Origin: Protonemura montana
Lineage: Eukaryota > Arthropoda > Insecta > Plecoptera > Nemouridae
Assembly: GCA_947568835.1 (NCBI GenBank)
Contig: OX387608.1
Coordinates: 3,572,001 to 3,636,000 of the forward strand
Direction of reading: 5' to 3'
DNA: 64,000 bases
Translations under genes and position numbers: made by a program
Notes under the pieces: model-generated
The model's database searches: none
Told to the model about the DNA's origin: nothing
The model's input: the letters and a program-made list of their open reading frames with translations, nothing else
In this document: in pieces, positions 8,401-49,636 of the stretch
How the letters are laid out: every line of letters begins with the position of its first letter
Position numbering within the stretch: the first letter of the stretch is position 1

Positions 8401-10449
8401 AACAATCATTTTCACTCAATTTTGATCCTAGAAAATTGGTCGTAATCGATCAGCACAGATATTTTGAACAACACTCAGGAAATGTGGGTTTGGTTCTCTG
8501 ATTGGGTTCTTGTTTTGAGAGTATATCTTCGTGTTCTGAAGGGAAAAGATCCCTGATTCCAAAAACCGATCACATTTGTATTTACCCTTTAAAGCAAAAG
8601 GTTATAGTTGGAGCAGCAAAAGTTTGACGTATATTTTTAGCTCGAATAATATATTTTTCATGTGGAAAATAAAACAAGAAACTGATCAAATTTTGCAGGC
8701 TTTGCAATTAAAGTTAGATAGCTACAAATCAAGTTAGTACCACTTATAAGACCAGTTCCACATGGCTAGTTGTAAAAACAGTGCGTCGTTTAACCCATCA
8801 ATGACTACGGTTGACCCACCACTTCATACCAGTGCCAATGATACGTCAAGCTGTAAACTACGTTAGCCTCTCCCCTTTCGCAGGCCGTGACTGTAGACAC
8901 GCCCCAGGGCCTGTCTTACGAGGGCCGACGCTGCGCCAGCGACAAGGTGTGCGGCGTCTCGATCCTACGTGCCGGCGAAACCATGGAGCAAGCTGTCTGC
9001 GACGTCTGCAAAGACATCCGCATCGGCAAGATACTTATACAGACCAACCTGTCGACTGGTAAGTCCTGCCAGCTGATTTTATATATCTGGGTAGAGCATA
9101 GGATCCAGCCAGCTGATCTCAAATAACCTGGATAGAGCATAGGATCCAGCCAGCTGATCTCAAATAACCTGGATAAAGCATAGGATCCAGCCAGCTGATC
9201 TCAAATAACCTGGATAGAGCATAGGATCCAGCCAGCTGATCTCAAATAACCTGGATAGAGCATAGGATCCAGCCAGCTGATCTCAAATAACCTGGATAGA
9301 GCATAGGATCCAGCCAGCTGATCTCAAATAACCTGGATAGAGCATAGGATCCAGCCAGCTGATCTTAAATAACCTGGATAGAGCATAGGATCCAGCCAGC
9401 TGATCTCAAATAACCTGGATAGAGCATAGGCTCCAGCCAGCTGATCTCAAATAACCTGGGAACAGATTGGGTCCAGTCCTGACTGTGTCTTCTTTGCAGG
9501 AGAGCCGGAGTTGTACTACCTTCGTCTGCCCAAGGACATCAAGGACTACAAGGTGATCCTGATGGACGCCACCGTTGCCACGGGTGCAGCGGCCATGATG
9601 GCCATCCGTGTGCTGGTCGACCACGACGTGCCAAAGGAGAACATACTTGTCGTTTCACTGCTAATGGCCGAGTCAGGTAGGCTAAGTTGCATTGCAGATA
9701 TCTGTTTTTCTAACCGTTTACTTTTTACTAATATTCCTACCCGGCTTTGCTCGGACTTAGACATTTTTAATAAAACTAGTGTTAAGTTAAACTATTTATC
9801 ATAAATATATCAAACTATCAGATATTGTGTATAGGGTGCCAAGAGGCTGGATATTGTGAATAGGGTGCCAAGAGGCTGGATATTGTGAATAGGATGCCAC
9901 AAGGCTGGATATTGTGAATAGGGTGCCAAGAGGCTGGATATTATGAATAGGATGCCAGGAGGCTGGATATTTGTCATAGTGAAGAAGGAAATATAGACGG
10001 AGGGCAACATGCCGGTGAAGATAATTGGTGTCACTTGGAGAAGTTGTCGAGAAATTTATAAAACCCTGAGATTTCAGACGTTTTGGTGCGTTGCCTTTGT
10101 CATTGCTAGCGTTATTATATGATAAGCATGTGATCCAAGCAACTCCTTTCTAGGTTGTAGAGATTAAAGGAGAGTGTTATGCTTGGTAATAATAAATTGG
10201 CTCGCAACTAGGCCAGATTGTTTGACTAGTAGGGTCTAGATCAAGGTCATGTTGGTATCTTTAATCAACGTTGCCGTCTTAAGCCACGCCCATTTGTCGA
10301 CAGGTGTGCATTCCATCGCGTATGCGTTCCCGGGCGTGCGAATCGTGACGTCTGCCCTGGATCCGGAGATCAACGACAAGTTCTACGTCCTGCCCGGGAT
10401 CGGCAACTTCGGCGACCGCTACTTTGGCACGGAGCCGTCACAGGACTAG
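2454..10449 (+). CDS. UCKL1: Uridine-cytidine kinase-like 1 (UCKL1)
   Basis: Two-domain pyrimidine-salvage protein: an N-terminal uridine/cytidine kinase domain and a C-terminal uracil-phosphoribosyltransferase-like domain. Nine exons: 2454-2521, 2757-3165, 3978-4148, 4472-4543, 5099-5350, 7763-7972, 8884-9058, 9500-9676 and 10304-10449. All junctions are GT-AG and keep phase, giving 559 aa, close to the roughly 550 aa of vertebrate UCKL1. The Walker A motif GGSASGKTT is near residues 127-135. The kinase core includes [10 protein letters not shown] and [11 protein letters not shown]. The UPRT part has [12 protein letters not shown] and an intact PRPP loop, [13 protein letters not shown], near residue 472, ending in [13 protein letters not shown]. 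Start choice: ATG 2454 joins exon 2 in phase (…SSDG|DGSEV…). Introns 4, 7 and 8 carry minisatellites. The acceptor of exon 6 lies about 10 nt from a SINE tail. Confidence 0.95.
3500..3800. repeat. Dispersed repeat with 'cccaacgtt…acctgttacttc' core (UCKL1 intron 2)
   Basis: This stretch shares recognisable blocks (TTGAATGC, CCCAACGTT, CCTGTTACTTCATCA, AAAACCCAGTT, GTAGATGTAGGTCTAAAAAC) with segments near 8000-8190, 16030-16190, 16625-16770, 17225-17315 and 58640-59085, in both orientations. It is a decayed dispersed element of unknown class. No coding capacity is visible. Confidence 0.6.
4686..5010. repeat. 29-bp minisatellite, about 11 copies
   Basis: The unit core is CCAAGAGGCTGGATATTGTG and copies are spaced 29 bp apart (for example 4741 and 4770). 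It fills most of UCKL1 intron 4. A single unit stands at about 3870-3900 in intron 2, and a second array lies in intron 8, so one gene carries three dispersed loci of one satellite. Confidence 0.93.
5443..5800. mobile_element. MITE-like element fragment with GGCCGATTTCACC terminus
   Basis: It begins ATGGCCGATTTCACCAA and continues with a run of GTTTAAA-type motifs. Similar blocks, several inverted, occur at 10560-10985 (ending TTGGTGAAACCGGTC), at the end of the long inverted-repeat element near 53940 (TTGGTGAAATCGACCAT) and weakly near 62620. A shared terminal motif at independent places suggests a non-autonomous DNA element family. Its right boundary here is uncertain. Confidence 0.45.
6284..6745. 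mobile_element. Fold-back element with ~200-bp inverted arms
   Basis: The left arm (about 6284-6490) and right arm (about 6535-6745) are inverted copies. GCTGAGCAAAC on the left matches GTTTGCTCAGC on the right, and AGTGTAAACCAGTCTCAAATGC matches GCATTTGAGACTGGTTTACACT. The roughly 50-nt centre includes TTTCATTTCGTTATTTCTCGCAG. No transposase frame is present, so it is a MITE. Single arms of the same family are at 30540-30665 and 34385-34640. It lies in UCKL1 intron 5; the intron around it (5801-7330) shows no gene. Confidence 0.85.
7335..7755 (+). mobile_element. 5S-rRNA-derived SINE with conserved tail
   Basis: A partial 5S-like head (AAGTTAAGCAACACTGCGCT, then a decayed C-box region) is followed by the family body: CAACCTCTCGACAGCATGGA, CCGTCCTTTGGAAGG and AAGCCGGTGGTC. 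The tail ends in GTTGTTAAACCCAAC. The tail end lies roughly 10 nt before the acceptor of UCKL1 exon 6. A tail fragment at 8735-8800 similarly precedes exon 7. Confidence 0.8.
9069..9463 (+). repeat. 41-bp satellite array in UCKL1 intron 7
   Basis: About nine to ten units of a 41-bp repeat with core CTGATCTCAAATAACCTGGA. The first unit-like sequence starts about 10 nt after the donor of exon 7. The same unit forms five other arrays in the window. Confidence 0.93.
9815..9975. repeat. 29-bp minisatellite, second array
   Basis: Five to six copies of the GGTGCCAAGAGGCTGGATAT unit already seen in UCKL1 intron 4 lie in intron 8. The following 9985-10125 stretch resembles dispersed segments at 11180-11370, 11990-12125, 19865-20125 and 20535-20715, which share TTCTAGAAATTTCTCGACAA-like blocks. 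Confidence 0.88.
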
Positions 10450-13150: not shown

Positions 13151-13193
13151 TGTGTCAGGGTTCTTATCATTAGCGAACTCGTGTTCTAGCGAG

Positions 13194-22208: not shown

Positions 22209-25200
22209 TCAGCAGTTCCTGTCGGATGGTCCGGCGAGGGCATCTGGGTCGGAAAGTGGGTCAAGTTCTGCGAAAAGGTCGAGCCAGGGCCGCCGTTCCT
22301 TGGCTATTCCCGGCGCTGACAGGCCCTGCAAAGAACACACGTTGATTTGCTGACCCGATGTTCTTATCATGCTACCGATTACATCTACGTGAGAGCTAAT
22401 ATTTTTTAATAAATAGGAGTTATTTCCAGCAGATATGAGTGTTAACTGGTAAGATAGCAATCACAGACCCAACATTCTCACCTGCTCTGCAGCCGACTCC
22501 TTCACACCCGCAGCCGTTTCTTTGGGAGGTGGAGCCCGCGCCAGGAGTTGCGACGGTAGCACAAAGCCTTGAGCCGCCCCTTCATCCGTCCCCCAGTCGA
22601 GCAGGTTACTGTGAGCTCCGCCCCCAGCTGCCCCCGGAGTTGGGTCACCTAGGGCCAACCCTGAGAGCAGTCCTGCCCAGTCCTGTCCAGAGTCCAGACC
22701 AAAGTCCCCAAAGTCCAGGTCTCTTCCGATGTTGCCTGGATCTAATACAGGCAAGTCCCCAAAGTCACCAATCTCGAGCAGGGTCTCGTCGCTCGAGTCC
22801 GGGCACGGCTCGAAATCTCCGAGCTCGAGAAGCGGTTCGTCGCTTTGTACCGACTCGGGCTCGTCGCGGAAGTCCGGCTCGAAGAAAAGCAGTCTGCTGG
22901 AAAGAAGGCAGGAGTTGAAGGACACTAAATGAAACTCTGGTATAATCACTGATAAAGCTTGCACAGATATTCCATCCTAATGAGGCAAAGACTACCACAG
23001 ATAAAGCTTGCACAGATATTCCATCCTTATGAGGCAAAGACTACCACAGATAAGCTTGCACAGATATTCCATCCTTATGAGGCAAAGACTACCACAGATA
23101 AAGCTTGCACAGATATGCCATCCTAATGAGGCAAAGACAACTGCAGAAAAAGCTTGCACAGTTCCATCCTTATGGGGCAAAGACTATCACATATAAAGCT
23201 TGCACAGATATTCCATCCTTATGAGGCAAAGACCACCACAGATAAAGCTTTCACAGATATTCCATCCTTTTGAGGCAAAGACTACCACAGATAAAGCTTG
23301 CACAGATATTCCATCCTTATGGGGCAAAGATTACCACAGATAAAGCAAACATAACTTCCATCCTTATGAGGCAAAGACTACTATGGATAAAGCAAACATA
23401 AATTCCATCCAACTCACTGGTCCTGGTCAGTGTCTGGCTTCTCAGCCGGATCCTCGCTGCCTTCCGATGCTGGTTTGGTGACCGGGGCTGCAGTCAGTTC
23501 ACTTAACTCCTTCACGATGGTGAACTCAAACGGCTGCTCTCCTAGAGAACAAAAGCAACGACAATTAAACGCTGATCGTCAGTCAAAGAGCGTAGGAGTA
23601 ACTAGATGGACCTCTCTACGAATTAAGTTTAGACGCTTGCAAATAGTTCATTATTAACACAGCTTTGCTTATGAAATTGCAGATAGGTTGTGGATGCAAG
23701 TTTGTTCATCATTTTTTGGTGGTAATTTTCAAAGTAAAACTAAACTGTTGTAAAGTCTAGAACAACTTTGAGACAAAGAATCTTGAAGAAAAAGGCCGAG
23801 AAATTGTACGAGATTGATCAAAATCTTTCGCAGAGCGTTTTTTAATTTTTTTACTTCTTTAAAACAAAGTATTTTTAGTAGAGGTTTACAAACACAATTC
23901 GAGATGCGTTGAGAAATTTCGTTCATTTATTTTTATTTTTTTCTTAAGAAAGGGGTTTGTACCCCTCTAGCTTCTTGCAGTACTTTTGGTTCACTAAAGA
24001 CCCTATCACATTTGTACTGTAAACATTTTGCCCTGGAAACTATACCTGCAAATTCCCACATTACAAATTGTTGTAAAACTTGGTTGAAACAAAGCTCCAC
24101 CCACCTTGAAATGCGTCAGCTACGGCTGCGAAAGCTTTGGCTGCGCCGTTTGAAAACTGTGACATCGCGGCCTGGTAAAGTACGAGCGCGTGCGAGAACA
24201 TGTTGCACCGCGCCGCCGTCAGTAAGTCCGTCTTCTGCACGCAATCGCGCTTCGCAGCCTCGAACTCGGAGCGCGCAGATCGTACTTGAGCTTGTACCTG
24301 CACACGTTAAGTAACAATGTGCTCAGTCGGGTATTGGATGGGTAACCACCGAACGGTTTGGCGTGTTGGAAACAACGGTCCTCGTGAGATCACAGAAGTT
24401 AAGCAACACTGCGCTGAGTCAAGTATTGGATGGGTGACCATCATACACATGACCAGTACTGTTCGGGAGAGAGGTTAGAGGGATGAACGTTAAGCAACAC
24501 TGCGCTGAGTCAGGTATTGTATGGTTGACCACCATACACATGACCAGTTCTGTTCGGGAGAGAGATTGGAGGGATGAAAGTTAGTCCAGCAACTTCACTC
24601 GCCTTGCTTATCAACCTCTCGACAGCATGGATTTGTGGAGGAATCCTGTTGTTCGCGTTGAACCGTCCTTTGCAAGGTAGGTTAAGCCGGTGGTCCCCTT
24701 TTCGGGGGGCTTTTCGACAGAAGTAGACTTTAAGCCGACACCAGATTTTTCTCCTCCCTTCTAGACTAGGTTAGGTTCATCATCATCCTCATCATCACCC
24801 ACTCATTCACTGATGCAATTAGACCAGTGACACCTGCCCGGTTATCAAAATGTGTAGCTAAATGCTAAAACCTCCAGGTGCCAAATAATCCAAAGTCATT
24901 TCCCAAACAGCTGTCCTGCATTACCTTGCGGAACTTGTCAAGCCGGTGCCTGGTTTCAGGGTCTAGTTCGCAGGAGAGCTGCTTCATTCGCGCGAGAGCG
25001 GCTCGGTACTCGTTCCTCAGCTTCTCCATGGCACGCACGTTCTGCAGCGTGTCCTCTACAGCACGGGCACGGAACGTCTCCACCTGGAACGACCCGTTCG
25101 GGGGGCGGAATTAAGTAATAGTTCAGGGTCTTAGATCTACCCACAATCGTCGTAGCAATTGAGCTTATATGCAAAAGCAATTATTTTGACAATTTAACTA

Positions 25201-30100: not shown

Positions 30101-31779
30101 CCATCCACTAGCGTCCATCGGGGAGAGAAAGCATACTTTGACCTCACTTACCAATGACAAGCGCTGTTGACGCCATCTTCTGTACCTACCAGCCGCTACT
30201 CAGACGTGTCCGTCAAGTCTAAGAAGTCTCGCAAGGGCGCGCTGACCGTCGAGACAATGTCTGCACCCAACCCGTTCTGTCCGAACACGAGGGGCATCTG
30301 CTGTCTCATGCTGCTGCTCAACCTCGGCATCATTCTTGTCACGCTTGGCTTCATTATCGTCATCCAGTTTCACCAGCCCATCTTCGTCTGGTAAGTCCAT
30401 CACACTGATCTTAAATAACCTGGATAGCGGTTGCCATGGAGAGACTTGGAAGCCAAGTTCACCATCTTGAGAGTCCCTGATTTTCAGTTCTTTCAAAGAG
30501 ACCGTGCTATTCGTTGAGGTTCAATCGTTACGATATAGCATTATTAAGTATAATTGAGCGTAAACCAGTCTCAAATGCGAGGAATCTGCGAGGAATAACG
30601 AAATAACAATTCTTAACACTCGAAACGACGGTGACTCCACCTGGTAGCATCCTCCAAGTGGTGGATTTATCACGAAAACAATGTTACATTAGCGCTAGTC
30701 CTCTGACTTTATCAATAAACTCAATGTTTCCACGTCCACTGGCCCATATCAGCCCCATTAACGTGTCTGCATCTCTTCCCACGCCGTCGCAGGATCCTGG
30801 GCGTGGTGTTCCTGGTGTTCGGGTTCTTGACCCTGATCGGCAGTTTGCTTTACTGCGTGCATGTGTGTCGGGACGCGCGGTCCCCCTCCCAGCTGCGACC
30901 AGAGGATCTGTACTGGACACGGCACTGGCAGAAGACCATCGGCCCTCCTGAGATTCACTACCAGCCACAAGAGCGCGCTGCCGACAGGTGAGTTACACTG
31001 CGGTCCAGACGAACGAACTGTTTGGCGTTTTATTCTTCTTCTTATTATTATTGTTTATTTATCGACAAAGGAGGCAAGTCCACAAGTGTGATATAATAGA
31101 AACAGGGTATATATAAAAACATGAACATTTAAAAACATTATTACAAAATAAAGCTTAAATTCAGAGGTAACACAAGATAGTGCAGTTGGTAATTGATACA
31201 TTTACAAATTTTCACGGGCAGCTGTTTGATCGCGGTGTTTTAGTTGGGTTATATAAGTCATGAAGGAGTCTGAGAGGATGTCGATGTCAGGGCAGGTTTT
31301 TGTTATTCTATTGTAGGCAGTCATTAGTCTTTTGATGCACCCGTGCTTGTAATATCAATCCTACTCTTTGGCGGTCTGAAAGGATGGTTATTACTAGTTT
31401 GCCTGGAACACCGGTACTCGTGAGATCACCGTAGTTAAGCAACACTGCGCTGGGTCAGGTATTGGATGGGTGACCACCGAACGGTTTGGCGTGATGGAAA
31501 CACCGGTCCTCGTCATATCACCTAAGTTAAGCAACTGTGCGCTGGGTCAGGTATTGGATGGGTGACCACCGAACGGTTTGGCGTGTTGGAAACACCGGTC
31601 CTCGTGAGATCACTGAAGTTTAGCAACGGTGACTCCACCTATTGGCGACCACCATGTTTATGGGTCGGTATTTGCCTCTGACCAGACCTTACCAGGTCAC
31701 GACTCTAACTTACCTGGTTCATGTCCGTTTTCATTGCAGATTTGAAACGCAGTCGCATCGCAGTAATGGCAGGTACTGA
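27113..31779 (+). CDS. Two-pass membrane protein, family not recognised
   Basis: Six exons in consistent phase: 27113-27132, 29177-29387, 29831-29949, 30193-30390, 30793-30987 and 31740-31779, giving 260 aa. The cytosolic-type N-terminal half is polar and basic, with Tyr and Ser (MARKVNKHHYLASPPRNRD) and a short repeat (QASPASSRQ-Y) on both sides of the exon 2/3 junction. A conserved-looking block, SAPNPFCPNTRGICC, leads into two hydrophobic helices at about 152-176 and 183-208, joined by a QFHQPIFVW hairpin. A charged tail of about 50 residues follows (EDLYWTRHWQKTIGPPEIHY). There is no signal peptide. The last exon gives FETQSHRSNGRY and a stop. The 20-nt first exon is inferred from phase alone; the ATG at 29196 is an alternative start. 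AATAAA is at 32239. Exons 2 to 6 are convincing; function is unknown. Confidence 0.75.
27840..28200. other. Intron 1 sequence without features
   Basis: Part of the long first intron of the membrane-protein gene. AT-rich, with no ORF or repeat I recognise. The 27140-27830 part likewise holds only short frames. Confidence 0.5.
28207..29062. mobile_element. Modular element: 41-bp array plus unique body
   Basis: About 13 units of the 41-bp satellite (28207-28772) are followed by a non-repeated body of about 290 bp. The body contains GGGACTCTCAAGATGGCGGC and CCATGGCAACCGCTGTCCAG and ends GGTTATTTGAGATCAG. That end is the inverse of the CTGATCTCAAATAACC in each unit, so the whole element has terminal inverted repeats. 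Other copies are at 34818-35645, 45930-46766 and 59570-60490. Confidence 0.85.
29391..29790. repeat. 129-bp minisatellite, about 3 copies
   Basis: Units start AGCACAGCCATG at 29391, 29520 and 29649 (exactly 129 bp apart), with a decayed fourth. They occupy nearly all of intron 2 of the membrane-protein gene, and the first unit begins 3 nt after its donor. The period is divisible by three, so frames stay open on both strands. Confidence 0.93.
30403..30665. mobile_element. Truncated modular element and fold-back arm
   Basis: 30403-30515 is the terminus and body of the 41-bp element without an array (CTGATCTTAAATAACCTGGA, GGTTGCCATGGAGAGACTTG, CATCTTGAGAGTCCCTGA). 30540-30665 is one arm of the fold-back family (GAGCGTAAACCAGTCTCAAA, CGACGGTGACTCCACCTGG). 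Both are in intron 4 of the membrane-protein gene, starting 12 nt after its donor. Confidence 0.75.
31395..31630 (+). repeat. 5S-rRNA-derived repeat, about three head units
   Basis: Repeated GAGATCACCGTAGTTAAGCA, CAGGTATTGGATGGGTGACC and GAACGGTTTGGCGTG blocks, the clearest 5S-like reading in the window (A-box-like, then C-box-like). No SINE tail is attached. It is within intron 5 of the membrane-protein gene. Confidence 0.85.
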
Positions 31780-34700: not shown

Positions 34701-34817
34701 TTTTAAAACCGAACGCCATCTCTTCTAAATTGTAACTGAGCTTTCAACAGGTTTTACAAAGTTTTTTGTAACATAACCTACGACATTGCTCAGTAAGTTT
34801 TACCACTGATGAAAAAT
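31780..34817. other. Convergent spacer, 3' side of membrane-protein gene
   Basis: No gene recognised. 32391-32455 is tRNA-like on the plus strand (GATAGCTCAGTTATTAGAGC, then a decayed B box), probably a SINE head. 33386-33565 is a 92-bp direct duplication (AACTGTTGCCATGACGACTT at about 33386 and 33478). 34385-34640 is one arm of the fold-back element, including CCTCAACGATTGATAAACAT. Confidence 0.6.
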
Positions 34818-35645
34818 AACTTGGGTAGAGGATCCAGCCAGCTGATCTCAAATAACCTGGAAAGAGCATGGGATCCAGCCAGCTGATCTTAAATAACCTG
34901 AATAGACCATAGGATCCAGCCAGCTGATCTCAAATAACCTGGATAGAGCATAGGATCCAGTCAGCTGATCTCAAATAACATGGATAGAGCATGGGATCCA
35001 CCCAGCTGATCTCAAATAACCTGGATAGAGTATAGGATCCAGCCAGCTGATCTCAAATAACCTGGATAGAGTATAGGATCCAGCCAGCTGATCTCAAATA
35101 ACCTGGATAGAGCATAGGATCCAGCCAGCTGATCTCAAATAACCTGGATAGAGTATAGGATCCAGCCAGCTGATCTCAAATAATCTGGTTAGAGCATAGG
35201 ATCCAGCCAGCTGATCTCGATTAACCTGGATAGAGCATAGGATCCAGCCAGCTGATCTCAAATAACCTGGATAGAGCATAGGATCCAGCCAGCTGATCTC
35301 AAATAACCTAGATAGAGCGTAGGATCCAGCCAGCGATCTCAAATAACCTGGATAGAGCATAGGATCCAGCCAGCTGATCAAAACTGAAGTCCATTGCTGG
35401 CAACAGGTTAGAGTCCCTAAATCCGAGGTGTCCCTATGATTTCAATGCTTATTTTAGAGTTTTTGAAACGTCTTTCCAACCAGTTTTTATCAGTAAAGTA
35501 GTGAAAACTACGAAAACAACTAATCAATACATTAAAATTAACTCGGGCTCTTTGAGAGAACTGAAAATCAGGGACTCTCAAGATGGCGGCTATGGCTTCA
35601 AAGTGTCACCATGGCAACCGCTATCCAGGTTTTTTGAGATCAGTA
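34818..35645. mobile_element. Modular 41-bp element, second full copy
   Basis: The array at 34818-35380 holds about 13-14 units with point variants and one shortened unit. The body at 35381-35645 carries GGGACTCTCAAGATGGCGGC and CCATGGCAACCGCTATCCAG and ends GAGATCAG. Same order and orientation as the copy at 28.2 kb. Confidence 0.87.
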
Positions 35646-36309: not shown

Positions 36310-37285
36310 CCGAGCGAGAGCGCTCCCAGCCGAACACGTGAAAGTTGCACTGGGGCAGAGTCACATGTCCAGCCGAACACTTGAAAGTTGTACTGGGGCT
36401 GAGTCACATTCCCAGTCGAACACGTGAAAGTTGCACTGGGGCAGAGTTACATGCCCAGTCGAACACGTGAAAGTTGCACTGGGGCAGAGTTACATGCCCA
36501 GTCGAACACGTGAAAGTTGCACTGGGGCAGAGTCACATGCCCAGTCGAACACGTGAAAGTTGCACTGGGGCAGAGTCACATGCCCAGTCGAACACGTGAA
36601 AGTTGCACTGGGACAGAGTCACATGCCCAGTCGAACACGTAAAAGTGGCACTGGGGCAGAGTCACATGCCCAGTCAAACACGTGAAAGTTGCACTGGGAC
36701 AGAGTCACATGCCCAGTCGAACACGTAAAAGTGGCACTGGGGCAGAGTCACATGCCCAGTCGAACACGTGAAAGTTGCACTGGGACAGAGTCACATGCCC
36801 AGTCGAACACGTAAAAGTGGCACTGGGGCAGAGTCACATGCCCAGTCGAACACGTGAAAGTTGCACTGGGGCAGAGTCACATGCCCAGTCGAACACGTGA
36901 AAGTTGCACTGGAGCAGAGTCACATGCTCAGTCGAACACGTGAAAGTTGCACTGGGATAGAGTCACATGCCCAGTCGAACACGTGAAAGTTGCACTGGGA
37001 CAGATTCACATCCCCAGTCGAACACTTGGAAGTTGCACTGGGGCAGAGTCACATGCCCAATCGAACACGTGAAAGTTGCACTGGGGCTGAGTCACATGCC
37101 CAGTCGAACACGTGAAAGTTGCACTGGGATAGAGTCACATGCCCAGTCGAACACGTGAAAGTTGCACTGGGACAGATTCACATCCCCAGTCGAACACTTG
37201 GAAGTTGCACTGGGGCAGAGTCACATGCCCAATCGAACACGTGAAAGTTGCACTGGGGCAGGGTCACATGCCCAGTCGAACACGC
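36310..37285. repeat. 43-bp satellite with an E-box in most units
   Basis: About 22 units spaced 43 bp (for example CAGTCG at 36499 and 36542), with core CCCAGTCGAACACGTGAAAG then TTGCACTGGGGCAGAGTCAC. Most units hold the palindrome CACGTG; some have CACGTA or CACTTG. A larger repeat is visible where blocks of several units duplicate (for example around 36600-36830 and 36950-37230). The array's right end lies 1-2 nt beyond the ALP stop codon, so it occupies the ALP 3' UTR or flank. Confidence 0.93.
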
Positions 37286-37286
37286 C

Positions 37287-40200
37287 TCAGTGCACACCGG
37301 GGAAGCCAGTAGAAAGCGCCAACAGAAATTTGAGCGATTCCCACCAACCTACCGGCCACCGCCACCTCATCGTGGACCCAGCGCTCCTCGCGGGCGCCGT
37401 ATCGTCAGCCATGACGCTGCTGGCGACGACGTCGACGCCGGGTGCCTCGATGCCGGGTGCCTCGACGCCAACACTAGGAGGCGGAGGATTATGACACCGC
37501 CCCGCGTGCTCGGCCCAGCACGCAGCGTACGCGACGGCATGAGGAATGGCGCTCTGCTCTAGCGTCCCTCCAAACAGGGTCGTCGCCAAGGGACCGTGAG
37601 CCCAGACAGCAACGTCTTCCCCGCCGTGCGTGGCCCAATGGCGTGGTGCGGCGGCTGCGTGGACTGCATTGCGTGTTGAGTTCATGTCAGAGTACGGCAC
37701 GCGAGGCTCAGAGTGGCCGGGACCGTTGCCGTAGAGTAGTGTTGAGTAGGGGAGGCCGTCCACGTCGGAAGTCTTGCTGTCGCCTCCTGATGGACGGACA
37801 AAGGGGAGGCGTTTGGTTAGAGATATGTGCGCCAAGGTATAGGGCATGGTGCAAGCATGGATGTGTACAGCTGGGCTGGTATCTTCAATGGAAGCCAGGG
37901 ACATGTGTGTCAAGGTATAGGGCATGGTGCAAGCATGGATGTGTACAGCTGGGCTGGTATCTTCAATGGAAGCCAGGGACATGTGTGTCAAGGTATAGAG
38001 CATGATGCAAGCATGGATGTGTACAGCTAGGTTGGCATCTTCAATGGGAGCCAGGGACATGTGTGCCAAGGTATAGGGCTTGGTGCAAGCATGGATGTGT
38101 ACAGCTGGGTTGGCATCTTCAATGGGAGCCAGGGACATGTGTGCCAAGGTATAGGGCATGGTGCAAGCATGGATGTGTACAGCTGGGTTGGCATCTTCAA
38201 TGGGAGCCAGGGACATGTGTGTCAAGGTATAGGGCATGGTGCAAGCATGGATGTGTACAGCTGGGTTGGCATCTTCAATGGGAGCCAGGGACATGTGTGC
38301 CAAGGTATAGGGCACGGTGCAAGCATGGATGTGTACAGCTGGGTTGGCATCTTCAATGGGAGCCAGGGACATGTGTGTCAAGGTATAGGGCATGGTGCAA
38401 GCATGGATGTGTACAGCTGGGTTGGCATCTTCAATGGGAGCCAGGGACATGTGTGTCAAGGTATAGGGCATGGTGCAAGCATGGATGTGTACAGCTGGGT
38501 TGGCATCTTCAATGGGAGCCAGGGACATGTGCGCCAAGGTATAGGGCATGGTGGAAGCATGGATGTGTACAGCTAGGTTGGCATCTTCAATGGGAGCCAG
38601 GGACATGTGCGCCAAAGTATAGGGCATGGTGCAAGCATGGATGTGTACAGCTGGGTTGGTATCTTCAATGGGAGCCAGGGACATGTGCGCCAAAGTATAG
38701 GGCATGGTGCAAGCATGGATGATTACAGCTTGGTTGACAACTCACCTAGAATGGGGTGACCCCTGGGAGTGGCCTGTCCCCCGAAGGTCAGAACGTTGGA
38801 ATGGTCAGCGGTGACCACTACCAGCGTGTCTTGCAGATCGACGACCTTGAGAGCTGCCGACACGGCCGCCTCGAGCGCTAGCGTCTCGTCGAGAGCGCGG
38901 TACGCGTTGTTGTAGTGGTGGGCGTGGTCAATGCGTCCGCCTGAAACGTGACAAACGCATGTAGATGTTGAAATGGCCGAAGATTTGGGTTTAATGGCCA
39001 CGGCCAAAGACTCTGGCTTTGCCCGAGACCAAGTAAGTTGAAGTTTTTTTTTTTCCTAAAGTAACACAGATGTGTTTTACCTAAACTTCATATAGATAGC
39101 CGGATCCACAAAGCAAAGTTTGAGCGTAATATCATAAATTTGGGTATAAATCAAAATTTAAATGATAGTTCACTCCACGATTGACTCTTTAAACTCACAC
39201 CTCGTTCAACGCAATTACGATGTCTACTTCTTCATTACCCGCATCTTTAATTTGAAATTGAACTGGATTCAGAAAAGTCTACTGGAGAGACAACTCGAGT
39301 TGTGCCATAAGTTTTTTTTTCTTCTGTGACAGCAGGTTCTGGAACGGAAATCCCGTAACTGGGAGAGATTTTGGAACAGATCCAGCAAGATTCTTTAACT
39401 GGCCCAGTTGCTCTAGTAGGTAGTGGGATAACGATCGTAGCGAAGTGGTCATGAATGCTGAAAGATACACAACCCGAGGAAAAGTACTTCTAGCTTGTTC
39501 CACCAGGTAGCGTCAACTCACCTTCAACAAAGAGGAAGAAACCTCGAGGGTTCCGTCGTAGCACGGCCAGCGCCGCTCGGGTCATCTCGGCCAAGCTCGG
39601 GTCACCTTCGGGGCTTGTGTCTCTGTCCGCCTCGAAGTCCATGTGTGAGTACGCGAACAAGCCTGTAGAGAGCGACACAAGCGTTAAGCACCAAGTGAAG
39701 AACCAAGGACCTCTTCTGTGAGAGTCGGCTTTACGGGCTCTATTATTTTAACTAGAGCTATAAAATATACACATCTTGAGTTCAAACTGCACTCCATCAA
39801 GACAAAACTGAAGGCCGTTCCGTAGTCACGTGATCTTTTCGCAACCCTTATTCACGGTCAAGGATCCTATGCTCTATCCAGATTATTTGAGATCAGCTGG
39901 CTGGATCCTATGCTCTATCCAGGTTATTTGAGATCAGCTGGCTGGATCCTATGCTCTATCTAGGTTATTTGAGATCAGCTGGCTGGATCCTATGCACTAT
40001 TCATGGTTATTTGAGATCAGCTGGCTGGATCCTATGCTCTATCCAGGTTATTTGAGATCAGCTGGTTGGATCCTATGCTCTATCCAGGTTATTTGAGATC
40101 AGCTGGCTGGATCCTGAGCTCTATCCAGGTTATTAGAGATCAGCTGGCTGGATCCTATGTTCTATCCAGATTATTTGAGATCAGCTGGCTGGATCCTATG

Positions 40201-43200
40201 CTCTATCCATGGTTATTTGAGATCAGCTGGCTGGATCCTATGCTCTATCCAGGTTATTTGAGATCAGCTGGCTGGATCCTGAGCTCTATCCAGGTTATTA
40301 GAGATCAGCTGGCTGGATCCTATGTTCTATCCAGATTATTTGAGATCAGCTGGCTGGATCCTATGCTCTATCCAGGTTATTTGAGATCAGCTGGCTGGAT
40401 CCTATGCTCTATCTAGGTTATTTGAGATCAGCTGGCTGGATCCTATGCACTATCCATGGTTATTTGAGATCAGCTGGCTGGATCCTATGCTCTATCCAGG
40501 TTATTTGAGATCAGCTGACTGGATCCTATGCTCTATCCAGGTTATTTGAGATCAGCTGGCTCACCCAGCAAGTGGTCTGTGTGAGAAAGATTCGCTGCGT
40601 CCAGCTGAGCACGCGTCCAAACGTAGCGCGCAGCGAGACCGCGTCGCTTCTTGTCTCTCAGCCAATCATCGACGAGGTTCCTTCCATCCAGACGTCGGCC
40701 GTCGTCGCCTGGACGCTCTGGGTCACGTGCCACCTTCGGCAGCCAATGACGTCGTCCGCCGGCAAGAATCACCTGGAGGCAAAAGCAGGTGTTTCAAAAG
40801 TGTCCTCCGGGGATAACTACCGGTAAGCCCAGCACCAAGTACCATGTTGTAAAAACTGGTCCTCGTGAGATCACCGAAGGTTAGCTACTCTGCGCTGGGT
40901 CAGGTATTGGATGGTTGACTATCATACACATGATCAGTTCTGTTTGGGAGAGAGGTTGGAGGGATGAAAGTTAAGCAACACAGCGCTGGGTCAGGTATTT
41001 GATGGGTGACCATCATACACATGACCAGTTCTGTTCGGGAGAGAGGTTGGAGGGATGAAAGTTAAGCAACACTGCGCTGGGTCAAGTATTGGATGGTTGA
41101 CTATCATACACATGACCAGTTCTGTTTGGGAGAGAGGTTGGAGGGATGAAAGTTAAGCAACACAGCGCTGGGTCAGGTATTGGATGGTTGACCATCATAC
41201 ACATGACCAGTTCTATTTGGGAGAGAGGTTGGAGGGATGAAAGTTAGTACAGCAACTTCACTTGCCTTGCTTATCAACCTCTCAACAGCATGGATTTGTG
41301 GAGGAATCCTGCTGTTCGAGTTGTACCGTCCTTCGGAAGGGATGTTAAGTCGGTGGTCTCCTTGGTGCTCTTCGACAGGAGTAGGCTGTGCTGGCACCGG
41401 GTTTATCTTTTTCCCTTCTAAGCTAGGTTTTGTTGCTTTTTATCCTCATTTTCATCATCATACTCACATTTACAGACGTCATTAGACGAGTAATTCAGAA
41501 GCCGACGCCAAAACAATGCGTCGTTGAACACTAATCAACTGTCGCATGGCATGCTTGTAAATGTTGCTAAGTAACAGCTGTTGATTCTAGCACAAACAGT
41601 TCTCGCGTCTGCTAAGAGATGGCGCTACTTGCTACATTCTCACCTCTGTTTACACATTTCACCACCATAGTGTCAAACATTAGCAGCACTGAGGCAACGG
41701 GTCCATGCAAGCAGGCGAAATAACGGTCAAATGGGTAATCCATTCGATTAATTGATTTATTAATGGTGTTTAACGACGCACTGTTTGACAACTAGCCATG
41801 TAACACTTGTCTTATGAGGTAGGTGAATGAGTGAACGATGAAGAACCTGACCTAGCCTAGAAGGGAGGAGGGGAAACGCGGTGCCGGCACGTAGCCTGTT
41901 CCTATCGAATAGCACCAAGGGGACAACCGGCTTAACATCCCTTCCGAAGGACGGTACAACGCGAACAACAGGATTCCTCCACAAATCCATGCTGTCGAGA
42001 GGTTGATAAGCAAGGCGAGTGAAGTTGGTGTACTAACTTTCATCCCTCCAACCTCTCTCCCGAACAGAACTGGTCATGTGTATGATGGTCATCCATCCAA
42101 TACCTGACCCAGGGCAGTGTTGCATAAATTCGGTGATCTCACGAGGACCGGTGTTTCCAATACGCCAAACCGTTCGGTGCTCACCCATCCAATACCTGAC
42201 CCAGCGCAGTGTTACTTAACTTCGGTGATCTTACAAGGACCGGTGTTTTCAACAGGCTAAACTGTTCGGTGGTCACCCATCCAATACCTGACCCAGCGCA
42301 GTGTTGCTTAACTTCGGTGATCTCACGAGGACCGGTGTTTCCAACACGCCAAACCGTTTCATTCGGAGTGTAACAACGACTTTAAAGGTGACTACGGATA
42401 CCGCAGTAAATTGTAACTTGCAACTTGGTCGCTATCTCCTTAGCTGCTAATGTGCGCTGCGACATGCCTCTTCGGGTACGTGGCGGGCATTCCAACATGC
42501 GGCAGAATTTAGTGCGTCCTGCGAGAGCAAAGGGAACTGACACCCCCCCCCCCATGCATAAACTCCGCGGCGCAAGAGAGGAAAGAAAGAGTGGAGAAGA
42601 AAAGAAACAGAGAGGGTGGCTTAGTCTAGGCCAAGCTTTATTATACCTGCCTCTCGTTCTCGTGAAATCGTTTCGAGCTTTGCGAAAGAAGCATGTATAA
42701 ATACTTGGATACATTATCACGTACGTCATAAAGCAGCTGGGTTTTTGAGGCGGTTTCAAATATTCAGGTTCGTCGAGCATTCGCCTTCTATTTTCTGAAT
42801 GGTGGCGTTCATGTAAGTTTCGATTTCTTGTCTGAAAATCGGTGCCCAGGTTTGTTCAATAAAGAGCAAACAGACCAACGGAAATTAAAAAAAGAATACG
42901 TTTCATTTTACTGGCTTTAAAAATCGTCGTGTGTATGATGGTCACCCGTCCAATACCTAACCCAGCGCAGTGTTGCTTAACTTCGCTAATCTCACCAGGA
43001 CCGGTGTTTCCAACACGCCAAACCGTTCGGCAATCCATTCGCACGCAACGCTCATCCCATACGAAGTCTAGCACTTGTCCAAACGCGTTAATGATCTTGC
43101 AGAGACAGCAATTCGGTTACCACACATCGTGTCGATAAATCCAACGGGACGTCCCATTAAAGCTGGTCCACGTTTGGCCATAATAAATCCCTTCCAATGG

Positions 43201-43750
43201 AAGGCAAGGAAAGGCAATGGAAGGCAAGGAAAGGAAAGGCAAGGCAAGGAAAGGCAAGGCCAGGACGTCCTTCCATTGCTTCTCAAGCTAGCACCTCCAA
43301 TGTTGTCTCTCGTTGCTGCCGATATCCTGCAGTTGTCCCATTTCCCCACGTCGTCGCGAACACAGCAGGCACTGCCGGCGTCGGCGTCGTGAATTTACGA
43401 GGGCGTCTGTCTTGTGCGTCGCGACGCGTCGAAGATGGGGAACGCCGATAGCGCCCGGCGTCCGCTAGGGCCAAGGGCGAGGGGAGTAGAGCATCTGAAC
43501 CAGCATGGCATTGTGGCTGGATTTACTGGACTTTACTGGACTTTACTGGACTTTACTGGATTTCACAGGACCTCACTAGTTTCGCTGGATACCGCGTGTT
43601 TAGATACAAAGTGCTTAAATACCAAGTCATTAAATTTAATAAACGCACGCGTCTCATTTCCCTAGCAGATGCAGTCGCCTCCAAGCCCAAGTGTAACTGG
43701 CAGCCAGCTTTTGAACGCACAACGCACGCTGCCGGGCCCTAGAGGAGGGT

Positions 43751-43788
<38 letters not shown>

Positions 43789-46700
43789 GCAATGCGCGTG
43801 TGCACCCACCAGACGGGATCGCATTGCACGCAACGGAGCCCGATTTACTACGCATGGAGCACTCGAGACGGGATTTGAATAATTCGGCGATCCTTCGTTC
43901 GTTCTCCGCTACGCTATTGTTTGGAAAACTTTTCAAAATTTAAGCGAAAATTCCATACAGGGTTGGCCCTTGTGACCCTTGCGACCCTTTTGGCCCTTGA
44001 GCTTGTTCAAGGGATTGTGCTAGTGCTTGTGCTTGTGCATGTGCTTGTGCATGTGCTTGTGCTTGTGCTTGTGCTAGTGCTAGTGCTAGTGCTAGTGCTT
44101 GTGCTAGTGCTACTGCTAGTGCTTGTGCTTGTGCTTGTGCTTGTGCTTGTGCTTGTGCTAGTGCTAGTGCTCGTGCTAGAGCTAGTGCTTGTGCTAGTGC
44201 TTGTGCTAGTGCTAGTGCTGGTGCTTGTGCTTGTGCCAGTGCTTGTGCTAGTGCTAGTGCTTGTGCTTGTGCTAGTCCTAGTGCTAGTGCTTGTGCTTGT
44301 GCTTGTGCTTGTGCTTGTGCTTGTGCTAGTGCTAGTGCTCGTGCTAGAGCTAGTGCTTGTGCTTGTGCTTGTGCTAGTGCTAGTACTGGTGCTAGTGCTA
44401 GTGCTAGTGCTAGAGCTTGTGCTAGTGCTAGTGCTAGGGCTTTTGCTTGTGAAGTTGAGAAAGTTGTAAAACCGGGAATTATGACTCGAATAAAGAACTG
44501 ACGAAGACGAGGCCTTACTCCAGCCAAACGAAATGAGTGCTTTGACTGTTGCTGCTTTTTATTGGTGGGTTCTATGAACTGGAGACTAATAAAGAATTTT
44601 AAATCTAAAACAACGTGTTTTTATGACTAGAACTCAATGGTCAGTACATTGAAACTACTTCAAGATGTCTCCCAACGCATGCGTCTTAACGGCCCCAACA
44701 AAAGACACGGCCAGTGGCTCTTGATTCAACTTTCTTACCGCTAAAGTTTTCCTGTGCTGTTTTCGTTTCCTTGCCAAATTGCGGCTTTATCAAAAGACGA
44801 GCTGCTTTTTTCCCCGCGAACATCCGTCAGACTAGAGAAGGCTTATTGTCGAACCGTCTTTACTCGATATTAAGACGCCTAAGCCTTTGCCAACACCAGT
44901 TACCCATGGATGATAAAACTTTGACCAAACACGCAAAGCCCTTTAGAGCAACTAATGGTAATCCGCTTTGCTTGAAATTCGTTGATTAGTGGTGTTTAAC
45001 GACGCACTATTTTGACAACACGTGGCACTGGTATAAAGGCGTCCATGAATGAGTGGATGATGATAAACCTAACCTAGCCTAGAAGGGAGCAGGGGAAACC
45101 TGGTCCCGGCACGTAGCCTACTCCTGTCGAATAGCACCAAGGAGACCACCGGCTTAACCAGTTGTACCGTCCTTCGGAAGGGACTCCCGAAGAACGATAC
45201 AACGCGAACAAAAGGATTCCTCCACAAATCCATGCTGTCGAGAGGTTGATAATCAAGGCGAGTGAAGTTGCTGTATTAGCTTTCATCCCTCCAACTTCTC
45301 TCCCGAACAGAACTGGTCATGTGTATGACGGTCACCCATCCAATACCTGACCCAGCGCAGTGTTGCTTAACTTTCATCCCTCCAACCTCTCTCCCGAACA
45401 GAACTGGTCATGTATATGATGGTCACCCATCCAATACCTGACCCAGCGCAGTGTTGCTTAACTTTCATCCCTCCAACCTCTCTCCCGAACAGAACTGGTC
45501 ATGTGTATGACGGTCACCCATCCAATACCTGACCCAGCGCAGTGTTGCTTAACTTCGGTGATCTCACGAGAACAGGTGTTTCCAACACGCCAAAAATGCC
45601 GGTCTTATTTTTGAGCAATTAATGTAATTCAATTACATTCAATTAAGCGCAGTAATTAGCACGGTTCTCTGTGCGGCGGGGCAGGATCGCTTCTAACCTA
45701 GGAACCTTAAGTTCGCAGATACATTAAGTGTATCAAACATAATATCCACTCGAGCTCATGGCGAGGCAAACTAATAACTTTGACCATAAATTGTATCTTT
45801 TCAAGTTGTATCGCCTCCCCCTCCACTGCCAAAATCCTGCCCCCTCTGAGCGGGTTCACGTAGGCACCCATGGCTGCCCTGGTGCTCTCGGGGTACGAAC
45901 GAGCACTGGCGAACGCGGGGCTGTTCACTTATCTCAAATAAATTGGACAACGGTTGCCATGGAGAGACTTTGAAGCCAAGGCCGCCATCTTGAGAGTCCC
46001 TTATTTTGAGTTCTCTAAAAAAAAACTCCAGCTATTTTAATTGTTTTGATTTAAAACCACTAAAATGTTTAAAATTAGTTAAAGACGTGTTTCAAAAACT
46101 CTAGATTTTGCATTGAAATCATAGGGAAACCTCGGATTTAGGGACTCCTACCTGTTGCCAACAATGGATTGCCTGACTTTAATTCTGATCAGTTGGCTGG
46201 ATCCTATGCTCTATCCAGGTTATTTGAGATCAGCTGGCTGGATCCGATGCTCTATCCAGGTTATTTGAGACCAGCTGGCTGGATCCTATGCTCTATCCAG
46301 GTTATTTGAGACCAGCTGGCTGGATCCTATGCTCTATCCAGGTTATTTGAGATCAGCTGGCTGGATCCTATGCTCTATCCAGGTTATTTGAGATCAGCTG
46401 GCTGGATCCTATGCTCTATCCAGGTTATTTGAGACCAGCTGGCTGGATCCTATGCTCTATCCAGGTTATTTGAGATCAGCTGTCTGGATCCTATGCTCTA
46501 TCCAGGTTGTTTGAGATCAGCTGTCTGGATCCTATGCTCTATCCAGGTTATTTGAGACCAACTGGCTGAATCCTATGCTCTATGCAGGTTATTTGAAATC
46601 AGCTGTCTGGATCCTATGCTCTATCCAGGTTATTTGAGATCAGCTGTCTGGATCCTATGCTCTATCCAGGTTATTTGAGATCAGCTGTCTGGATCCTATG

Positions 46701-49636
46701 CTCTATCCAGGTTATTTGAGATCAGCTGTCTGGATCCTATGCTCTATCTAGGTTATTCGAAATCAGTGGAGCGCTCCCACCCGAACACGTGATCACTACC
46801 TGTCAGTGCATTAATTTGTTCTTCAATTACACGGAAGCAAGGATAGTACTGCACTGGGGCAGCCAATCAAATACGCAATAAGAAAATAAAACATATTTAC
46901 CATCGCACTAAAACTGTACACTTTGTTAAAAATCATTTCGTTTTTATAAAATTTTCGAGCAAAATTAGCAGAAGTGAAAATCACGAAGGCCTAACGACTT
47001 TCCGCTGTTGTGCTAACAGTGAAGTTTATTATGCGTGAAACCCAAGGTTCGGTGTTAGTTTCTCCAGCCAGTTGTTCGTGGAGACACTCCAGGCTGGCTG
47101 GAATCCAGGACTAAACCATCCATATGTCAGCCCTTACCGCAAGCAACATAAACTCCTGGCAACCCTTGAACAGCGCCCTCGATCGGCCACGGAGCTAATT
47201 GCTAAATCCACCACACTTTCACTCTTGTTCTCTTGCCAGGACAGTAATTTAATTGTCCTGTTGTCTCGGCATGGCAAGGCAAGGCAAGGCATGGCAAGGC
47301 AAGGCAAGGCAAGGCAGGGCAAGGCAAGGCAAGGCAAGGCAAGGCAAGGCAAGGCAAGGCAAGGCAAGGCAAGGCAGGGCAAGGCAAGGCAAGGCAAGGC
47401 AAGGCAAGGCAAGGCAAGGCAAGGCAAGGCAAGGCAAGGCAAGGCAAGGCATGGCATGGCATGGCAAGGCAAGGCAAGGCAGGGCAGGGCAAGGCAAGGC
47501 ATGGCAAGGCAAGGCAAGGCAAGGCAAGGCAAGGCAAGGCAAGGCAAGGCATGGCATGGCATGGCATGGCAAGGCAAGGCAAGGCAAGGCAAGGCATGGC
47601 AAGGCAAGGCAAGGCAAGGCAAGGCAAGGCAAGGCAAGGCAAGGCATGGCATGGCATGGCAAGGCTAGGCAAGGCAAGGCAGGGCAAGGCAAGGCATGGC
47701 AAGGCAAGGCAAGGCAAGGCAAGGCAAGGCAAGGCAAGGCAAGGCAAGGCAAGGCATGGCATGGCATGGCAAGGCAAGGCAAGGCAGGGCAGGGCAAGGC
47801 AAGGCATGGCAAGGCAAGGCAAGGCAAGGCAAGGCAAGGCAAGGCAAGGCAAGGCAAGGCAAGGCATGGCATGGCATGGCATGGCAAGGCAAGGCAAGGC
47901 AAGGCAAGGCAAGGCATGGCATGGCAAGGCATGGCATGGCATGGCAAGGCAAGGCTAGGCAAGGCAAGGCAGGGCAAGGCAAGGCATGGCAAGGCAAGGC
48001 AAGGCAAGGCAAGGCAAGGCAAGGCAAGGCAAGGCAAGGCAAGGCAAGGCAAGGCAAGGCATGGCATGGCATGGCAAGGCAAGGCAAGGCAAGGCATGGC
48101 ATGGCATGGCATGGCAAGGCAAGGCAAGGCAAGGCAAGGCAAGGCAAGGCAAGGCAAGGCAAGGCAAGGCAAGGCAAGGCAAGGCAAGGCAAGGCATGGC
48201 ATGGCATGGCAAGGCAAGGCAAGGCAAGGCAAGGCAAGGCAAGGCAAGGCAAGGCAAGGCAAGGCAAGGCAAGGCAAGGCAAGCTTCTTACGTTAACGTT
48301 CCTGCCCGGCGCATCCTCCACTAGTTGTCTAGCGATGTCTTTGCAGAGGTGTCTCGCTTTGGTCGGCACCTTCCCGTCGTCCTCCCAGTACCTGCTGGCC
48401 GTGTGTGCGTACAGGGCCGCTGGAGTCGCGTGAGTCGCTCGTGTGTTGGTCACAAGACCAGTCGCAAGACCTGCGCAGAGACGAGGGTCACAAGCTGACA
48501 GACTTTTCAAATCTCTCAACTTGGATCGGCTTAGTGTTTATATGCGATTAGCCGGATATCTGTATCGGATTTTTAGATTGTTTTAGAATTGATTTTTTGT
48601 TGAGTGAAGCGTAAAAAAACTGCTGAAAATCCTAAAAAAAAAAACACTTGCAAATTTGAATTAATTTGGAAGGCGGAAACTTGTGGATTTTTAATTTTAA
48701 CGCATGACACGTCTAAATTCATCTTGCAAAATGTTTGCAACTTTTCTTTAAGTGCCCAGAGAAAGGCTGTGGTCATTTTACTATTAACAAAACTATAACC
48801 GTCTCAAAAATGTATTTCCAAACGGGGACTCAAACCCCGATCTCTACCTATCACGGGTGTTCTCTTACCAATTGAGCTACTTGGACACTGGCTTTTTGAG
48901 ACGATTTTAGTGTATTTGATGAGAATGACAGATCTCCAAGGAGTAGAACCACGAGGCTGTGAATACTCACAGTCACTCTGATTCTAGTGACGCTATATCA
49001 CGTCACAACCTGTCAAACTCGAATAACTCCAATTTTACGTGGATGCTTTGCATTTTTAGATGAAAAGTTATTTAAATTGCAAACGCTTGCAATGCGCGGG
49101 GAATTGGTTATTGTGAACACTACAAACGTCTTAAAAATTGATGCTGATTGAATGAAAATTGATTGAAAATTGATTGATGAAAATTGAAAAATTGAGAAAT
49201 AGTTGCTACTGGTTTTTTCTTTCATATCACTTATGGCGTCGTCACAGAAAACTTTCAAATATGTGCATTCTGACAATTTTTAAAATATTTACCCCGCCTA
49301 CATTATTCAAAATTTCAAAATTTTAATTAGTAGAAACCATAGAACCATGTTTAATTTACAAACTCATATTTTGTCAACACCAAACGCCATCACGAATTCG
49401 CCGCAATGACGCTCTATGACTAATTAAAACTAAATTCATCAGGTGTCATCAGCACACGCACCCTCCCGCTGCGCCCAGTCGAGCAGCGACGGCACCTGCG
49501 CACCATCGACCGATGAGCAGTCATCGAACCTTGCAGTGGCGTCCACACCTACCGTCTCGAAGTTCGCCTTCACGCCGCAGAGCAGCGCTGTCGCACACGC
49601 GCTAGACTCGCCCGTCTGCGCGTTGCTGTTGTAAGT
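37287..49636 (-). CDS. ALP: Alkaline phosphatase (ALPL-like), N-terminus missing
   Basis: Secreted or GPI-anchored Zn/Mg phosphomonoesterase. Exons on the minus strand: 49636-49462, 48470-48292, 40772-40565, 39662-39522, 38940-38746 and 37786-37287, phases consistent. Landmarks in order: [17 protein letters not shown] (nucleophile-Ser region), [97 protein letters not shown], and [18 protein letters not shown]. Zn-ligand segments (DHAHH, TADHS, HGGEDV) are intact. The C-terminal 70 residues are not family-like and end weakly hydrophobic ([13 protein letters not shown]), so GPI anchoring is uncertain. The N-terminal exons (LGDGMG region, about 100 residues) were not found and may lie beyond the right edge. 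The 7.5-kb intron 40773-48291 is almost entirely repeats. Confidence 0.9.
37820..38722. repeat. 78-bp minisatellite, about 12 units, inside an ALP intron
   Basis: Units spaced 78 bp (GTGCAAGCATGG at 37849, 38161, 38239 and so on) fill the intron between the last two ALP exons, ending about 23 nt from the donor at 38745. On the ALP strand the array is an open 26-residue repeat in the same frame as the last exon. On the plus strand two frames are also open. Some units differ at GCC/GTC and GGCATC/GGTATC positions. Confidence 0.93.
39860..40560. repeat. 41-bp satellite array in an ALP intron
   Basis: About 17 inverted-orientation units (GCTGGCTGGATCCTATGCTC, ATCCAGGTTATTTGAGATCA). Two blocks of several units, carrying the same private variants (CTGAGCTCT, TATTAGAG, TGTTCTATCCAGATT), repeat near 40100-40170 and 40270-40340, showing segmental duplication. 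The array reaches to 4 nt from the donor at 40564. The body module seen in other copies is absent here. Confidence 0.93.
40840..41530 (+). mobile_element. 5S-derived SINE with four head units
   Basis: Four or five 5S-like heads (TTAAGCAACACAGCGCTGGG, TATTGGATGGTTGACCATCA) are followed by the family body (ACCTCTCAACAGCATGGATT, CGTCCTTCGGAAGGGATGTT). The tail ends GCGTCGTTGAACACTAATCA. Within the big ALP intron. Confidence 0.87.
41750..42362 (-). mobile_element. 5S-derived SINE, minus orientation
   Basis: It starts with an ATTGATTTATTAATGGTGTT tail end, then the body and three inverted 5S-like heads including CGAGGACCGGTGTTTCCAA and CACGCCAAACCG. It is opposite to the copy 200 bp away, so the pair could form a hairpin. 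A further single head lies at 42918-43032. Confidence 0.87.
42363..43185. other. ALP intron segment without recognised genes
   Basis: Contains the single 5S-like head at 42918-43032 and a C10 run at 42544. Short frames on both strands are not recognised. Confidence 0.5.
43190..43264. repeat. Short GGAAG/GGCAA purine-rich repeat
   Basis: About 70 bp of AAGGCAAGGAAAGG-type units in the same ALP intron as the 1-kb GGCAA array 4 kb away. Nearby, 43520-43563 is a fourfold TTTACTGGAC decamer. Confidence 0.85.
43751..43785. repeat. Poly-G tract of about 35 nt
   Basis: An uninterrupted G run on the plus strand, poly-C on the ALP transcript strand. True length is uncertain because sequencing collapses such runs. 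Confidence 0.85.
44006..44448. repeat. GTGCTT/GTGCTA hexamer satellite
   Basis: About 73 hexamers mixing GTGCTT and GTGCTA with few other variants. They read Leu-Val on one strand and Ala-Gln/Leu on the other, hence long spurious frames. A roughly 150-bp segment (TGCTCGTGCTAGAGCTAGTG) occurs twice, about 170-180 bp apart. Confidence 0.93.
44985..45595 (-). mobile_element. 5S-derived SINE with several heads, minus
   Basis: The tail (TTAGTGGTGTTTAACGACGC) is followed by the body, then three inverted head units spaced about 91 bp (CACCCATCCAATACCTGACC). The end (GTGATCTCACGAGAACAGGT, CCAACACGCCAAA) is the 5S-like start. Confidence 0.87.
45930..46766. mobile_element. Modular 41-bp element, inverted copy
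   Basis: The body comes first (CTCAAATAAATTGGACAACG, GCCATCTTGAGAGTCCCTTA), then about 14 array units. Variant GGAT/TGTCTGGATC units cluster at the far end, and GAGACC units cluster near the body. Terminal inverted repeats are recognisable at both ends. Confidence 0.87.
47270..48284. repeat. 1-kb GGCAA/GGCAT pentamer satellite
   Basis: About 200 tandem pentamers, nearly all GGCAA, with GGCAT, GGCAG and GGCTA variants. Triplets of GGCAT recur at about 47451, 47551, 47646, 47756, 47866, 48061 and 48196, suggesting a higher-order period near 100-110 bp. It begins 7 nt inside the ALP intron after the donor at 48291, so the transcript reads gtaagaagcttg then CCTTG repeats. It produces stop-free frames on both strands that are not genes. 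Confidence 0.95.
48796..49095 (-). mobile_element. tRNA-derived SINE with intact-looking head
   Basis: On the minus strand 48830-48897 reads as a cloverleaf-like head: TAGCTCAATTGGTAAGAG (A box) and a perfect 5-bp T stem, CGGGG TTTGAGT CCCCG (B box). The 5' TCCAA pairs with a 3' TTGGA. The anticodon arm is poor, so it is a SINE head and not a tRNA gene. The element's other end carries TTGCAAACGCTTGCAATGCG. It lies within an ALP intron. Confidence 0.75.

Follow-up and report, generated by a model that had tools for sequence, protein, structure and literature searches.

Minisatellite arrays beside predicted 5' splice sites in Protonemura montana: probable outcome of repeat turnover within introns

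Introduction

Minisatellites at exon-intron boundaries are described from amphioxus, where the so-called mirages occur in several genes with differing unit lengths and where the repeat unit contains the boundary itself (PMC3087553). A second related system are the introners, which are searched for by the criterion that introns of unrelated genes are similar to near both splice sites; target-site duplications are described for some introner families only (PMC9860276). In C. elegans the intronic minisatellite CeRep25B was linked to multiple alternative splicing (PMC4039745).

The arrays described here, from a region of the stonefly Protonemura montana, resemble the mirages in that boundary-placed minisatellites of varied unit length are found in several genes. 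In contrast to the mirages, their units contain no detectable exon-intron boundary and belong to dispersed families. With the introners they share related sequence near both splice sites in introns of unrelated genes, and also the involvement of an element that is transposon-like and bears inverted terminal repeats. However, they are tandem arrays where introners insert singly, their junctions revealed no target-site duplication, and two of the introns of an alkaline phosphatase (ALP) gene are old. CeRep25B is likewise a dispersed and largely intronic minisatellite which is clustered in parts of certain chromosomes, but the excerpts of its description at hand contain no donor-adjacent or whole-intron placement. 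Finally, a repeat of 41 bp is organised like a MITE (non-autonomous DNA transposon) carrying tandem repeats: inverted terminal repeats enclose the array together with a tail of some 250 bp, although the donor-adjacent arrays in UCKL1, ALP and at locus L044 are without the ends of this element; the tail is still present at locus L031. A literature search that was not exhaustive and covered parts of the papers revealed nothing closer than mirages and introners.

Materials and Methods

The window (C11:3572001-3636000) is the whole stretch of 64 kb that was analysed, and the genome searched comprises 258.5 Mb in 34 contigs. Tandem arrays were called with TRF. Gene models, and with them the predicted donors, were obtained with our own codon and splice-site script, which scores donors and acceptors with generic weights; some small exons chained by this script were dropped. 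The placement statistics are based on 24 introns from seven genes of one region, as given by these gene models, and on 18 arrays with a score of at least 100. This set omits the 26-kb ALP intron 49637-75782, and the small exons predicted inside it were treated as spurious.

The array-end test comprises 136 ends, belonging to two sets of arrays: 56 from the window and its surroundings (124 kb in all), and 12 of the 41-mer on contig C1. The latter are 12 of the 13 arrays that could be grouped among the first 100 places listed for the 41-mer, the one at the end of the list being left out. An inward donor within -20 to +3 of the array end and with coding sequence upstream was counted as a hit. For the comparison with human ALPL, codons were counted by hand from p.E191 (c.571) in the human sequence aligned to ALP.

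Results and Discussion

Donor-adjacent arrays in the window

Large arrays were detected by TRF throughout the window. The first-pass annotation had named seven sites at which unrelated arrays start within a few nucleotides of a donor. Six of them are indeed tandem arrays, with edges 3, 3, 5, 7, 8 and 9 nt inside the predicted donors (Table 1), and by TRF and gene models these donor-adjacent arrays are real. The seventh site, 30391/30403, turned out to be the terminal repeat of a transposon-like element. The array coordinates given earlier were correct to a few nucleotides, except that the array at the ALP donor 38745 begins at 38736 and not at about 38722. The adjacency is, as proposed, a property of the position and not of one family, since several unrelated families start at donors.

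The exon joins are backed by known proteins. Human alkaline phosphatase aligns continuously through the ALP junctions, as does uracil phosphoribosyltransferase for UCKL1, and Pfam backs the joins of UCKL1, ICA1, FAHD, Rab and DNAAF11. For the membrane protein the Pfam match to TMEM230/134 is sub-threshold only.

Some further features of these genes were noted. The exon ends which flank the 129-mer intron (29339-29387 and 29831-29880) encode near-identical protein repeats (ASPASSRQ...) and form a direct repeat. A 29-mer family occurs in two UCKL1 introns (4681-5003 and 9821-9971), 137 and 144 nt from the donors. Six more arrays, none close to the donor, are found in the ALP intron 40773..48291. 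Across the GGCAA array at 47249-48296 either strand can be read without a stop for 347 aa, which is a trap for ORF finding.

Table 1. Introns with repeats next to the predicted donor, and copies of the 41-mer element, in the window.
Feature	Position	Strand	Repeat	Distance to donor	Distance to acceptor
UCKL1 intron	9059..9499	+	41-mer array 9064-9459, sense	5 nt	40 nt
Membrane-protein intron	29388..29830	+	129-mer array 29391-29782	3 nt	48 nt
Membrane-protein intron	30391..30792	+	terminal inverted repeat of 41-mer element from 30403, without tandem array	+13	
ICA1 intron	22897..23417	-	49-mer array 22945-23410	7 nt	48 nt
ALP intron, human ALPL c.648 position	40773..48291	-	5-mer array 47268-48283	8 nt	
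ALP intron, human ALPL c.862 position	39663..40564	-	41-mer array 39862-40561, sense	3 nt	199 nt
ALP intron	37787..38745	-	78-mer array 37825-38736	9 nt	38 nt
MITE-like copy	34829..35379	+	41-mer array beside one terminal repeat, then tail of ~250 bp up to and including the inverted terminal repeat	away from donor	
MITE-like copy	46187-46766		41-mer array beside one terminal repeat, ~250 bp tail to the other		
MITE-like copy	59837-60488		41-mer array beside one terminal repeat, ~250 bp tail to the other		
MITE-like copy	28212-28771		41-mer array beside one terminal repeat, ~250 bp tail to the other		

Placement of array ends and coverage along introns

Of the 18 arrays in the 24 introns, six start at most 10 nt from the donor. 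At the acceptor no array ends that close, and five stop 38-48 nt short of it. If the arrays are placed uniformly in these introns, 1.1 donor-adjacent starts are expected (p = 0.00025), and the expectation rises to 3.4 once the splice-signal zones are closed to them (p = 0.005); both p-values were computed after the pattern had been noticed and are uncorrected for that. The ALP intron 49637-75782 contains 15 arrays with a score of at least 150, the nearest of which is at least 595 nt from the donor, and its inclusion changes the donor-adjacent count to six of 33.

Inward donors with upstream coding sequence were found for nine of the 136 array ends, compared to 2, 1, 1 and 0 in four displaced windows and one in outward direction. 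Six of these hits are those already described, one (73073R) is doubtful, and two on C1 (L044 and L061) are new. Outside the window there are three hits among 84 ends, including the doubtful 73073R, versus one in the four displaced windows combined and one outward, and the independent replication by this route is therefore modest. Of the 24 array ends on C1, two satisfy the coding filter; with 60,000-200,000 donors assumed, the expectation is 0.06-0.19. The antisense 41-mer array L060 (C1:959371-959700), with a donor 14 nt off and a signal-peptide-like first exon, failed this filter. Two of the three near-donor ends on C1 are antisense, so that no orientation rule is established.

Exon edges could favour insertion or expansion, for example through linker DNA or R-loops, and repeats would then be attracted to the very start of an intron. 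The six of 18 donor-adjacent starts, non-uniform even with the splice zones barred, the nine inward hits and the two C1 ends are all in agreement with such an attraction. The same is true for the presence of both orientations at donors (L044 sense, L061 antisense) and for the element whose own terminal repeat begins at +13 in the intron at 30391. The coverage along the 24 introns, however, speaks against it. Counted from the donor, arrays cover 0.05 of positions +1-6, 0.19 of +7-10 and a flat 0.25 of +11-60, compared to an interior mean of 0.34. All repeats pooled give a similar picture (0.33 at +11-20, 0.46 at +41-60, interior 0.60). Counted from the acceptor, array coverage is 0 to -30 and then 0.01, 0.13 and 0.21 by -60. 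As near-donor coverage stays below the interior mean, arrays are not enriched at donors. The coverage is steady until the splice signals, and array starts therefore accumulate where it is cut off, at the acceptor in the same way but further in. The special attraction to exon edges considered in the first-pass annotation is not supported, given this low donor-side coverage and the pile-up on the acceptor side, and we regard it as unlikely, albeit the most serious of the alternatives.

Repeat families and the 41-mer element

Exact probes matched the genome 12,700 times for the 41-mer, 1,338 times for the 78-mer and 661 times for the 49-mer, whereas the 129-mer has four matches on four contigs. 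The 78- and 49-mers are present in hundreds of copies on many contigs, and the idea that the units arose locally, out of the DNA of each intron, was dropped due to this dispersal. Each of the first 100 places listed for the 49-mer, on six contigs, lies at most 5 Mb from a contig end, and a hint of array clustering toward contig ends is seen. Array density differs about hundredfold between C11:3552001-3676000 (29,550 array bases in 124 kb) and C1:12000001-12200000 (378 in 200 kb); the latter region, meant as a replicate, contains one array with a score of at least 150 and has no power. Arrays of 91/92 bp, which we take to be SINE3-like, resemble part of the 5S rRNA (24396-24583, 31407-31631, 40892-41246, 42089-42358, 45276-45555 and 56412-57366); several share a downstream tail and none is found at a donor.

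The inverted terminal repeats of the element in which the 41-mer sits were read by eye beside 14 arrays; both ends are retained in several of them. Possible target-site duplications were likewise compared by eye, and at copy 28212 six of eight bases are alike, but not so at the others. The sense strand of the 41-mer is without GT; on the antisense strand an acceptor-like site scores 8.7 bits and a weak donor 4.8 bits.

Mirage-type duplication would make the units tandem copies of the exon-intron boundary. The position of the arrays fits this idea, the amphioxus Adh3 and globin genes provide a precedent (PMC3087553), and on visual inspection the end of the exon appeared to recur in the 78- and 129-mers. 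These matches failed the shuffle test, for which reason the candidate was rejected: in six arrays no unit is significantly like the adjacent exon end (shuffle fractions 0.19-0.95), and the units are therefore not taken for mirages. The recurrence of the 78- and 49-mers over many contigs and the absence of GT from the sense 41-mer also disagree with such an origin, which we consider highly improbable.

Donor-adjacent arrays on other contigs

Comparable cases are found on six other contigs, with in-frame exons on both sides at five loci. GTAAG and GTGAG, followed within 20 nt by a 41-mer unit, have 26 and 18 matches in the genome, several of them in one array, and 15 likely array starts were picked from the matches listed. 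At seven of these an open frame ends in a donor and the array begins there; the coding score is clear for L034, L066, L067 and L069 and near zero for L031, L032 and L033 (1.7, -1.9 and 2.2). The remaining eight are not donor starts, as L035 and L073 are inside an array, L036 and L065 are without array, and L068, L070, L071 and L072 are array starts with no convincing exon. Outward CTTAC yielded nine matches compared to about eight distinct inward GTAAG array starts; motif counts alone therefore reveal no clear excess, which is a further point against attraction by exon edges.

The far exon is in frame at L034, L066, L067 and L069 as well as at L044 on C1. The L044 junction aligns gap-free to PTPN23, and Pfam domains span the junctions of L066 (Arfaptin, from three residues before the junction) and L067 (FHA), while the Pfam search gave no match for L034 and L069. 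L066 is presumably PICK1-like.

Introns consisting of arrays and the age of the ALP introns

The non-array DNA of the 11 donor-adjacent introns measured amounts to 22, 24, 45, 47, 51, 52, 55, 98, 185, 202 and 6503 nt and is thus below 100 nt in eight of them, whereas the shortest of 12 array-free introns has 156 nt. The contrast between 22-55 nt in array-rich introns and at least 156 nt in array-free ones indicates that native sequence was lost or replaced, and insertion of the array into a pre-existing intron of 22-55 nt is unlikely. L066 and L069 have no more than 24 and 22 nt of non-array sequence, so that most of the intron must there be provided by the array itself. The 41-mer introns of UCKL1, PTPN23, the Arfaptin-domain gene and L069 (0.35-1.2 kb) are almost all array from donor to acceptor; in UCKL1, L044, L066 and L069 the array comes within 2-17 nt of the donor and 19-40 nt of the acceptor. 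It is rather doubtful that this transposon-derived 41-bp minisatellite, GT-free on its sense strand, is an intron-making or intron-replacing DNA on which the spliceosome works by satellite alone.

An introner-like gain would mean that the 41-mer array element entered exons and made some of the introns, itself supplying the splice signals. Such an origin may apply where the non-array part of an intron amounts to just 22-24 nt, too little for a working older intron, and the introns of UCKL1, L044, L066 and L069 are alike to near both splice sites in unrelated genes, as is asked for in introner searches (PMC9860276). However, a target-site-duplication signal is absent from the 11 junctions, a small sample in which own pairs have a mean of -1.5 and crossed pairs of -1.1. 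The arrays in UCKL1, ALP and L044 begin mid-unit and not at the terminal repeat of the element, and the acceptor stretches are not significantly similar to it (shuffle fractions 0.08-0.93 against the unit).

Two ALP introns are moreover old. By codon count the introns at 48291 and 40564 have the same position and phase as the human ALPL introns after c.648 and c.862, which are indicated by splice variants (PMC2654544, PMC2702372). ALP introns without a donor-adjacent array match human introns at c.297/298 (PMC9654387) and c.997 (PMC12689622). The arrays at 48291 and 40564 thus took over old introns, and a creation of introns by satellites is contradicted for these two only. As a general answer introner gain was rejected because of the target-site null result and the two old introns, and even for a part of the introns we judge it distinctly unlikely. 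The ALP intron at 38745 is, as we assume, that of human ALPL c.1189.

Proposed repeat turnover bounded by splicing

We favour with moderate confidence the explanation that repeat turnover in introns, bounded by splicing constraint, makes the arrays appear exon-edged. Minisatellites of dispersed families, including the family housed in the transposon-like element with its inverted terminal repeats, would enter introns and the arrays would expand there. Neighbouring single-copy DNA would be lost, so that arrays come to fill much of the intron, and splicing would set the limits, which are about 6-10 nt on the donor side and about 40 nt on the acceptor side. Array coverage is flat to these limits, some introns are near-pure array, the families are dispersed and two of the intron positions are old. 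The order of entry, expansion and erosion is presumed, and the limits are probably set by selection on splicing and not by insertion bias; the deletion of flanks is deduced from one haplotype of one species. Among the options listed in the first-pass annotation, selection limiting arrays only at the exon comes close to this explanation.

Some findings run counter to a splicing-bound reading. Placement is still non-uniform with the splice zones barred (p = 0.005). Two ALP arrays hug the donor (3 and 8 nt) but do not fill their introns, as 199 and 6495 nt are array-free at the other end, and the sense unit of the 129-mer has a donor-like site of 7.2 bits that might have been eliminated under strict selection.

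If turnover bounded by splicing is the cause, little of an intron would be protected, as repeats reach to about +6 and about -40, which is the known span of the splice signals. Introns of nearly pure tandem repeat are natural material for testing what splicing needs. With them it can also be asked if takeover by repeats and gain of introns may be two ends of one process.
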